From NCBI RefSeq assembly GCF_017656475.1, contig NZ_JACDNT010000004.1, forward strand, positions 1 through 64,000: a stretch of 64,000 bases of DNA, in the 5' to 3' direction. Positions 1-14,071 of the stretch are shown here, piece after piece. The notes beneath the pieces are model-generated. The model was not told where the DNA came from and ran no database searches. It saw nothing but the letters and a program-made list of their open reading frames with translations. This DNA is from Archaeoglobus sp. (GTDB lineage: Archaea; Halobacteriota; Archaeoglobi; Archaeoglobales; Archaeoglobaceae). The translations under genes and the position numbers were made by a program. Position 1 is the stretch's first letter, and each line of letters begins with the position of its first letter.

Positions 1-47
1 TGAAGATTGAACAAGTTAAAGAAGAGATTGGATTGAGGATTGTGTAA
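1..47 (+). CDS. C-terminal fragment of an unidentified protein (cut by window start)
   Basis: An open frame enters the window and ends KIEQVKEEIGLRIV with a TAA at 45-47. The stop lies 5 bp from the stop of the opposing gene that ends at 53, the usual tail-to-tail spacing here, which is the main reason to believe it. Nothing can be said about function from 14 residues. Confidence 0.4.
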   Translation, partial: KIEQVKEEIGLRIV

Positions 48-52
48 GCACC

Positions 53-806
53 CTAGTCTTTCATAGTTATTTTCCTGCCAAATAAATTGATCATGTTCAC
101 AAAAGACCTTGGGAGGTTATAGGAAAACTTATTCCAAAGTACTTTCACTTCTTCTGATAGCTCTACATTGTAGATCTTACAAAGATCATCAACAGAAGGC
201 GGGAACATGTACATTCTATGAAAATATTCATATTTTCCAATAAATTTTACAAGTTCAACAAATTCACCATTCTCGTTTGCTATACAGAAGTAATACTTCA
301 ACCCATTCTCCGTTGGTAGTATTATTTTTTTACCTTCCTCGATTTCATCTAGGATGGCCTTTGCAATAATATCCATCACATCTGGTGAAACAATATTTTC
401 TCTTGCTAAATCACATACATAATGAATGTTATCAAACGAGATGATATCTGCCTCTTTTACAAGTTCTTTTGGATTAAGATCCAGTAGATAATCTCTTTTT
501 TCAAGATGCTCAGCATTTATGTAGCAATTAATATTATGAATTTTTATTTTACCATCAGTAGGATCGAAGCCAATCGATATTGGTAGCAATTCAGGATTTG
601 ATTTTATTATCGTGTTAAATGCTCCAAATACGTTTAATGTTTTACCTATACCCTTTGGTGCGGGGATTTCGAGGATGTTGACTTCTTTCAGCAATAAGAC
701 AATAGAGCAATAAGACAATAGGAGTTACGTATTTAAGATGGCCCAATATTTTTTCTAATGTCGTATATTTTATCTCCTTTGCTCCGAGGGAGATGTACTC
801 CTCCAT
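53..806 (-). pseudogene. P-loop ATPase, frameshifted by a 16-bp tandem duplication
   Basis: The ATPase frame runs from a TTG-like start near 718 to the stop at 53. It begins just before a Walker A-like APKGIGKT and carries a Walker B-like strand (IISFD). Upstream, an ATG at 806 (or 809) opens a second frame, MEEYISLGAKEIKY..., reading to TPIVLLL and then, in this sequence, to a TAA at 644-642 after about 54 codons. The two frames join perfectly if one copy of the 16-bp tandem repeat at 690-721 is removed, giving a protein of about 245 residues. So the gene is broken by one duplication, or switched if the repeat is unstable. The family is an AAA-like ATPase, not identified further. The flanks are AT-rich and accessory-looking. 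Confidence 0.7.
690..721. repeat. Perfect 16-bp tandem duplication inside the ATPase gene
   Basis: AGCAATAAGACAATAG occurs twice back to back at 690-705 and 706-721. Sixteen bases is 5 codons plus 1, so the extra copy shifts the reading frame of the minus-strand ATPase gene. Both copies are identical, which suggests a recent event. Confidence 0.9.
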
Positions 807-1017
807 CATAGTACACTTTGCTTCATAATTATTTAAATTTAATACCCCTTTTTAACACCTTAGAACTGCCTATGGTTTTGGTGCAAAAACCCAACAAGAG
901 TCAAGCAAAAGAAGTGTGGGTAGTAGTTGGTAGTATGAGCAGGGGCATAGTATGGTAGTATGGTTCTATCAAATTTAAATAGAGTAAAATTCTAAGCTTC
1001 ATTGGAGGTGAGTTAGG

Positions 1018-1392
1018 ATGAAATCGGCGGAGATTAGTAGAAAGATACAAGAGAATATCCCGATTAAATTCGACAAATTCCCTAAACTTAAACATGGAAT
1101 TCCATATGAATTTTATAAATGGGATCGCGACAAGGAAGGGCGGCTTTGTCTATATTATTTCGTAACAGGTGGGGAGAATGTTCACCAAAAAAGAGTTGTT
1201 ATGAATGAACTTGTTGCAGCAATAATGAGATTCTTAGAAACTGGTAGATTTAACAGAGAGGATTTCAGAGAACTATGTCCGGTTACAAGTAGAGATGGAG
1301 ATTGCGGATTTACGGTGATAGGAAGGATTATGGAATACTTATTTGATGCAGAATACGAAGGAAGAGGCAAGGGTTTCAGAAAGAAGTTTTAA
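1018..1392 (+). CDS. Conserved hypothetical protein, 124 aa
   Basis: I do not recognise a family. The protein is charged and soluble, with no membrane segment or signal and no clear metal-binding motif (two isolated Cys near the C-terminus, around DGDCGF). The start is well supported: a TATA-like AATTTAAATAG near 972-982 and a strong ribosome binding site GGAGGTGAG at 1004-1012, six bases before the ATG. Having a leader with Shine-Dalgarno sets it apart from many leaderless neighbours. It stands alone, between the broken ATPase and tRNA-Ile2, in AT-rich DNA that may be accessory. Confidence 0.7.
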   Translation: MKSAEISRKIQENIPIKFDKFPKLKHGIPYEFYKWDRDKEGRLCLYYFVTGGENVHQKRVVMNELVAAIMRFLETGRFNREDFRELCPVTSRDGDCGFTVIGRIMEYLFDAEYEGRGKGFRKKF

Positions 1393-1462
1393 TTACTATA
1401 ATTCGCACTCGCATCATTAAATCGGCTAGAGGAAATCGGCTGGAATACACCTAAAAAAGGAA

Positions 1463-1537
1463 TGGGCCCGGAGGGATTCGAACCCTCGACCGCCCGGTTA
1501 TGAGCCGGGCGCTCTGACCTGGCTAAGCTACGGGCCC
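1463..1537 (-). tRNA. tRNA-Ile2 (CAU anticodon, agmatidine-type)
   Basis: The minus strand folds into a full cloverleaf: acceptor GGGCCCG pairing with CGGGCCC, anticodon stem around loop CTCATAA (anticodon CAT), T arm GAGGGTTCGAATCCCTC and discriminator A at 1463. CCA is not encoded, and a T-rich stretch (TTCCTTTTTT) follows. CAT anticodons belong to initiator Met, elongator Met or Ile2. The GGGCCC acceptor and the C/G-rich anticodon stem match, from memory, the A. fulgidus tRNA-Ile2 that is the substrate of TiaS, whose gene lies 1.6 kb upstream on the same strand. A Met elongator is the alternative. Confidence 0.9.
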
Positions 1538-1538
1538 T

Positions 1539-1564
1539 CTGAATTAATTCAGCTTTGAGTATAT
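1539..1564 (-). promoter_or_regulatory. tRNA-Ile2 promoter with palindromic 5' leader
   Basis: On the minus strand a TATA-like AAATATACT lies about 24 nt upstream of the mature tRNA 5' end. Between them is a perfect 14-bp palindrome, CTGAATTAATTCAG (1539-1552), abutting the acceptor stem. It may fold in the pre-tRNA leader or be chance in AT-rich DNA. Confidence 0.45.
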
Positions 1565-1582
1565 TTGTTTTTTGCTTCGTGA

Positions 1583-3097
1583 CTATGCTATGGCTCCACC
1601 TCTTGCAGCCTTTGCCGCCCTGACATGCTCCGACCCACGCAGAAACAGCAGTATTATTAGCGAGGTCAGGATTGGGAAGATTATCATAGTGTTAAAGACA
1701 AAATGCATGCTGTCAACGAACCCTTTGACCATCTCAACAAGCGGTGCAGGATTGCCGTACTTCGCGTATGCAATGAGAATTCTCATCGTTCCGGGGTCAG
1801 GAATCTGGTTTCCGTATCCGGGAATCCAGTCTTTCATGCGTGTGGTCAGCAACACGCCACCAACAGCGACACCCATTGCCTGAGCGAGCGTATTCATCGA
1901 CCTCAAGGTGCCGTTGGCCATCCCCGCTTTTTCTATCGGCACTGACGAGATTGCTACGTTCAGGGAGGGAGACATCAGCATGCCCATCCCTATACCCATT
2001 GGAGCTATTCTTGCGAAAAATTCCCAGTATTTGATATCGACATCCACTGAAGAAATGTCGATTAGACCAATTGCAAAAAACAGCGGCCCTAAGGACATCA
2101 GATACTTCGGATTCATTCTGTCACTCAGCCTTCCTGCAATCGGAGCAACGAAGGTGTTCATGAGCGGAATGCCAAGAAGCCAGTATCCTGCTTCCTCTGC
2201 AGTGAGAAACTTCAGACCCTGCAGGAAGTACGGGAAAACGAATAAACTCGCCGAAACCCCGAAGAAAAGAATTGATGTAGCAACGACAGAAACCGTGAAG
2301 TTTCTCACTCTGAACAGGCTTAAATCAAGCATGGGATACTTAGTTTTCAACTCCCACAGTGAAAAGGCAAGCAGGTAGGGGAAAGAGACGACGAAACACG
2401 AAATTGTCTTCTCATCCCACCATCCCCAGTCCTGCCCCTCTATGATACCGAGCGTTAAAGAGCCTAGTCCGATTGACAGTAGCAATGCTCCAACCCAGTC
2501 GACCGGAACCCTCTCTTTTCCCCCAAGAGGAGGGAGAGCTAGCCAGGCTGCAGCTATCGCGAAAATTCCGATTGGAATGTTGATGTAGAAGACCCAGTGC
2601 CAGCTCAAGTTGGTTGTGAGCCAGCCCCCAATAATTGGCCCGAGTGTGAAGCTCGACGCCATCAGAATGGCGTTCAAACCCATAACTTCCCCTCTCCTCC
2701 CTGGAGGGAAGAGTTCAGCGGCTATTGCGAGCGTGTTTGCACTGAGAATCGTGCCGCCAACAGCTTGAAGAGCTCTGAATGCAATCATCGATTGCGTATT
2801 CCAGGATTGGCCACAGAGAAAACTGCCGAGAACGAAGATAACCATTCCCAGAATGAAAAATCTGTCTCTCCTCACCATATCTCCTATTCTTCCTGCAATA
2901 ACAAGCAGTACGACCATCGTTAGTGTGTATGCGTTCATTATCCACTGCAGGTCAGACATTTTTGCCCCGAAATCTTCCGCAATCCTCGGAAGAGCAACAT
3001 TCAGAACACTGACATCCAGAAGAACCATGAAAAGGCCAGCGCTCACAGGCAGAAAGGCTATCCATGCTTTCAAAATGCTCTGGTCATCACCGTTCAT
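1583..3097 (-). CDS. MFS drug:H+ antiporter-type transporter (DHA2, 14-TM)
   Basis: A 504-residue polytopic membrane protein of the EmrB/QacA (DHA2) branch of the major facilitator superfamily. The N-terminus has MVLLDVSVLNVALPRIA, typical of DHA2 TM1, then the MFS loop signature GRIGDMVRRD, and the antiporter motif C region LGPIIGGWLTTN near residue 150. Length and hydrophobic pattern fit 14 helices. The family exports hydrophobic compounds or sugars; the substrate here is unknown. It starts 32 bp after the tiaS stop with its own AAGGAG site 5 nt before the ATG, so it is probably the last gene of the taw1-translin-tiaS operon. No TetR- or MarR-type regulator lies beside it, unlike many bacterial efflux pumps. 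Confidence 0.9.
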   Translation of the reverse strand: MNGDDQSILKAWIAFLPVSAGLFMVLLDVSVLNVALPRIAEDFGAKMSDLQWIMNAYTLTMVVLLVIAGRIGDMVRRDRFFILGMVIFVLGSFLCGQSWNTQSMIAFRALQAVGGTILSANTLAIAAELFPPGRRGEVMGLNAILMASSFTLGPIIGGWLTTNLSWHWVFYINIPIGIFAIAAAWLALPPLGGKERVPVDWVGALLLSIGLGSLTLGIIEGQDWGWWDEKTISCFVVSFPYLLAFSLWELKTKYPMLDLSLFRVRNFTVSVVATSILFFGVSASLFVFPYFLQGLKFLTAEEAGYWLLGIPLMNTFVAPIAGRLSDRMNPKYLMSLGPLFFAIGLIDISSVDVDIKYWEFFARIAPMGIGMGMLMSPSLNVAISSVPIEKAGMANGTLRSMNTLAQAMGVAVGGVLLTTRMKDWIPGYGNQIPDPGTMRILIAYAKYGNPAPLVEMVKGFVDSMHFVFNTMIIFPILTSLIILLFLRGSEHVRAAKAARGGAIA

Positions 3098-13778: not shown

Positions 13779-14071
13779 TGTTCAGAATGCGAGTTTACAG
13801 GGTAAAAGGGGAAGTGCTCGTTGCCGTCTGCGACTCAGATATAGTCGGCAGAACCTTCAGAGAGGGAGAGCTTAAACTGGAGGTAAAGGAGAGCTTCTAC
13901 GGAGAGGAGGAAGTCGGAGAGGAGGAAGTAAAGAGGGCTTTGAGAAATGCGACGATTGCAAACATTACTGGTAGCAAGGCCGTCAGTCTTGCCGTGAGGA
14001 TTGGTATTATTGACAAAAACAGGATTCTTTACATTGAAGGATGCCCGCACGCTCAGATGGTAGTAATTTGA
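13778..14071 (+). CDS. DUF424-family protein
   Basis: A small (97 aa) archaeal protein of the DUF424 type: MFRMRVYRVKGEVLVAVCDSDIVGRTFREGELKLEV, then an acidic loop and IANITGSKAVSLAVRIGIID, ending with the CPHAQMVVI element. The function is not established. The family is habitually linked to translation genes, as here, between aIF2-beta and an RNA m5C methyltransferase. The frame is open upstream, but the ATG at 13778 overlaps the aIF2-beta stop (TGATG) and begins at the conserved N-terminus. The 3' end overlaps the next gene by about 30 nt. Confidence 0.85.
   Translation: MFRMRVYRVKGEVLVAVCDSDIVGRTFREGELKLEVKESFYGEEEVGEEEVKRALRNATIANITGSKAVSLAVRIGIIDKNRILYIEGCPHAQMVVI

Follow-up and report, generated by a model that had tools for sequence, protein, structure and literature searches.

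A probably decaying orphan P-loop gene with two lesions beside a tRNA-Met gene of Archaeoglobus sp.

At the start of a 64,000-nucleotide stretch of the genome of Archaeoglobus sp. (hereafter the window, i.e., the whole of the DNA analysed), a minus-strand reading frame containing a P-loop begins at a short tandem repeat. This raises the question of whether the repeat has broken the gene, switches it on and off, or simply lies at its start. The original prediction was that of an ATPase gene "disrupted, or switched" by a perfect 16-bp tandem duplication. The upstream part of the gene and its surroundings comprise the following features:

690..721, no strand: perfect tandem duplication of AGCAATAAGACAATAG, which shifts the frame by one
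722..809, minus strand: N-terminal frame MMEEYISLGAKEIKYTTLEKILGHLKYVT, starting at ATG 809 or ATG 806, with the top codon-position score of the six frames, though mildly so
56..718, minus strand: middle part of the gene, one open frame (P0001) with the P-loop APKGIGKT, running on in frame into positions 55-597 of another contig of the same draft genome (C65:55-597)
830..837, minus strand: TTTAAATA, an archaeal TATA-box-like sequence

The analysis of the window confirmed that AGCAATAAGACAATAG is present exactly twice, head to tail, at positions 690-705 and 706-721. On the minus strand, the frame opened by ATG 809 (or ATG 806) continues until the stop codon at 642-644; the P-loop frame extends without interruption from TTG 718 to a stop at 53-55. 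Since 16 equals 1 modulo 3, the removal of one unit joins the ATG-initiated frame to the P-loop frame, exactly as had been proposed. The window contains two perfect tandem repeats with a unit of 10-40 bp, the 690-721 array included, and 20 simulated sequences with the same dinucleotide make-up yielded one altogether and none with a unit of at least 15 bp. The AGCAATAAGACAATAG unit is itself a loose 8-bp repeat (period 8, 82% matches), and this internal periodicity may perhaps have favoured slippage. Another perfect tandem repeat, with a 15-bp unit, lies in frame within a coding frame at 13900-13929; it was considered as a second fresh duplication and rejected, its length being equal in all seven of the seven genus relatives compared, which indicates that it is old.

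As for the start of the gene, the 29-codon upstream piece has a codon-position score of 0.97, which is the best of the six frames and exceeds that of all 38 off-frame pieces of the gene body; the same score was equalled or passed in 920 of 10,000 shuffles and another frame of the piece scores 0.50, and we take it as only mild support for the joined frame. TTTAAATA, to which we assign a presumed promoter role on the basis of the archaeal TATA consensus, begins 28 nt before ATG 809, a distance fitting a leaderless archaeal message. The disruption by the 16-bp duplication of a frame starting at ATG 809 is, as originally suggested, the best reading, and the joined frame starting at ATG 809/806 would represent the former working gene. 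It is unlikely that the true start lies instead in the downstream frame, at TTG 718 or TTG 694, with the duplication at or ahead of the start and the insertion sequence described below as the sole truncating lesion. Both TTGs are in frame, TTG 694 would begin the protein directly before the P-loop strand VNILEI, and no orthologue contradicts such a start, no convincing one having been found; however, inspection by eye disclosed no start signal or ribosome-binding-like sequence ahead of either TTG, whereas the upstream ATG frame enters the same repeat and has the TATA-like box at a suitable distance.

The other end of the P-loop frame lies close to the end of its contig. This contig, C4, whose first base is position 1 of the window, belongs to a draft genome of 2.04 Mb in 92 contigs, and bases 1-55 of the window recur at seven other contig ends (50-55 bp at 100% match). 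Complete copies of the corresponding insertion sequence (IS) on contigs C36 and C15 have the same terminus, TAGGGTGCTTACAC, and encode a DDE transposase (PF01609, matched at 9.2e-11 and 3.7e-21, respectively); a target duplication of 10 bp flanks the C36 copy, and none is seen at the C15 copy. Judging by the C36 copy, the IS is about 1.2-1.3 kb long. Two further features can thus be placed at the left end of the window:

1..55, minus strand: end of a multi-copy DDE-transposase IS, with the terminus TAGGGTGCTTACAC at 42-55 in the minus-strand reading
56..68, no strand: 13-bp target-site duplication of the IS, found also on C65 immediately outside the other end of the IS

Because the IS terminus covers positions 1-55, the stop codon at 53-55 belongs to the IS and not to the gene. 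The claim that both halves of the gene are otherwise intact did not hold, in that the IS insertion removes the last ~178 codons and supplies the apparent stop. The annotation of the 221-aa open reading frame (ORF) is thereby corrected to the central portion of a longer gene that has been broken. More generally, the contigs of this draft genome break at the ends of one IS group, and target duplications permit some of them to be joined, e.g., C4 with C65 (13 bp) and possibly C41 with C31 (8 bp).

The join between C4 and C65 emerged from the comparison of 11 left-end and 12 right-end IS flanks (132 pairs), from which one right-end match with two mismatches, on C19, was excluded. The window flank GTCTTTCATAGTT is identical to the C65 flank over 13 bp, the top of the 132 pairings; next come a 10-bp pair formed by the complete C36 copy and an 8-bp pair, with all the remaining ones at 4 bp or less; C4 and C65 therefore carry the identical short direct repeats that define a target duplication at the two IS ends. 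When one copy of the target site is kept, the P-loop frame passes from the window into C65 and extends for ~178 codons before a stop, beyond which C65 harbors cbiM and then further cobalt-transport-like genes (named by eye). From the tRNA-Met gene rightward, the window is matched at 95% identity by a sister genome, G003, whose cbiM lies ~150 bp from that tRNA gene. The 13-bp target match and the order of tRNA-Met and cbiM in G003 are two independent grounds for placing C65 next to the start of the window; the IS is spanned by no contig of the draft, and the adjacency is supported by flank match and G003 order. On this basis, the gene would have had about 424 codons before both lesions.

The fragmented state of the draft genome might suggest that the second repeat copy is absent from the organism and was introduced by the assembly, given that the genome is in 92 contigs and that contig ends share 50-55 bp at the IS. 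The 32-bp array is, however, shorter than the contig-end overlap of ~55 bp, so that single k-mers should span it, and we regard such an artefact as very improbable.

The IS also bears on the idea of a reversible switch, in which the two-copy repeat would expand and contract by slippage, turning the protein on and off. A perfect 16-bp tandem repeat in a coding frame, with a unit that is not a multiple of three, is what such a switch would use, and in this respect the locus resembles phase-variable genes with tandem repeats (bacterial phase variation; review PMC11868660). It differs from such genes in that the repeat has two copies only, no allelic variation was seen (neither a homologue nor a second allele shows any), and the gene is truncated by an IS. 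Because the IS has removed the last part of the gene, the loss of one repeat unit would not mend it: the truncation persists at any copy number, no copy-number state gives an intact gene, and contraction would yield at best a protein of ~246 residues truncated at its C-terminus. Of the two parts of the original prediction, disruption is the best reading and switching is without support, and we consider a switch highly unlikely.

What the gene encoded can be judged from its motifs. P0001 contains APKGIGKT, situated towards the N-terminal end of the joined frame, which matches [AG]x4GK[ST] and which we take to be a Walker A motif (P-loop); the chance of such a motif in ~420 random residues is, by our own rough estimate, ~1%. 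IISFDNIH is a possible Walker B motif of the joined-frame protein. By motif alone, the product is probably an ATPase. Pfam, NCBIfam, PHROGs, and PADLOC gave no significant match, to a known ATPase family or any other, and PDB sequences gave no match to the P-loop protein; an AlphaFold model computed from the single sequence without an alignment had a pLDDT of 40 and was unusable. No convincing homologue was retrieved from 60 relatives, 392 genomes of the phylum, and a scan of GTDB contigs, nor from viral contigs and plasmid or phage collections. At E <= 0.1, 28 of the 392 phylum genomes (the own one included) matched the P-loop ORF. These matches were considered as possible relatives and taken for chance, the P-loop not being covered in any frame that was read, on the basis of 17 hit frames from 16 loci plus two alignments, hits without a locus being excluded; the frames recognisable by eye were proteins of other kinds, such as aminotransferases, reverse-transcriptase-like proteins, and a histidine kinase. 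One match outside this set, in G028 (query 7-45, E 0.06), does span the P-loop residues, in a 51-aa frame with a stop. With respect to the collections searched, the P-loop gene thus appears to be an orphan.

The gene is embedded in an AT-rich insert of ~2 kb (window 56-1457 plus C65 55-736), with tRNA-Met on one side and cbiM on the other, which has no counterpart in G003, where a spacer of ~150 bp is found. The GC content of the insert is 0.35 in the window part and 0.31 in the C65 part, against 0.46 in window 1540-64000. Besides the broken P-loop gene, the insert contains a divergent 124-aa gene, and a tRNA gene borders it:

1018..1392, plus strand: second insert gene, 124 aa, of an unnamed family, with GGAGGTGA ahead of its ATG
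1463..1537, minus strand: tRNA-Met (CAT), the conserved border of the insert

The 124-aa protein has matches at E <= 0.01 in 8 of 294 genomes, the own one included, those in G029 and G269 being weak. In G030, which belongs to another genus, a 125-aa homologue (64% identical) lies ~1.3 kb from tRNA-Met, with Mrr-like endonuclease and TrmB-like winged-helix genes as neighbours; in G093, a ~36% homologue directly adjoins an ORF resembling an archaeal ATPase (by eye). G001 harbors, beside tRNA-Met, a degraded stretch 87% identical to window 1233-1700. The region downstream of tRNA-Met is variable within the genus, with the insert here, cbiM in G003, and, in G001, broken genes and an IS110-like transposase (by eye) together with what remains of the 124-aa gene. 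Integration of the att type at tRNA-Met was considered and is unsupported: a copy of the tRNA 3' end was sought at the far border of the insert, where C65:1-820 gave just chance matches of 7-10 bp, and no integrase was seen among the ORFs of the insert. That small inserts targeting tRNA-Met of these archaea carry, besides the 124-aa protein, the ~424-residue protein as a member of an ATPase family not seen before, with a repeat-bearing start that can be switched, is a very improbable reading.

The explanation that we favour, and hold to be probable, is that of a recently acquired orphan gene pseudogenised by two independent, ordinary events, i.e., the 16-bp duplication and the IS insertion. 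The gene (~424 codons, with a P-loop) would have been gained together with the 124-aa gene in the ~2-kb AT-rich insert; the tandem duplication near its start would then account for a frameshift just before the P-loop, and the insertion of the IS, with its 13-bp target duplication, for the loss of the last ~178 codons. Both lesions can be read directly from the DNA, as can the continuity of the frame on either side of each and the absence of the insert from G003; each lesion would be expected to kill the gene. The suggestion that the duplication is recent is plausible, given the perfect repeat and the lack of any further stop in ~420 codons, and it may be extended to the IS, whose 13-bp target duplication is also perfect.

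The locus shares with known prokaryotic pseudogenes formed by short tandem duplication or IS insertion a frame-shifting short unit, an IS target duplication, and frames that are otherwise open; it differs from them in that both lesions fall within one orphan gene, and nothing else about it is unusual. P-loop ATPases also occur on archaeal mobile elements, with which the locus has in common an N-terminally placed Walker A motif and an AT-rich insert by a tRNA gene; unlike in those, none of the families searched gave a sequence match, no att repeat was found at the locus, and no integrase was seen among the ORFs of the insert. Through this finding, C4 and C65 of the draft genome are linked; with no wider consequence beyond this link and the annotation, the locus would illustrate how an orphan gene, carried in on a small insert, decays soon after its arrival.
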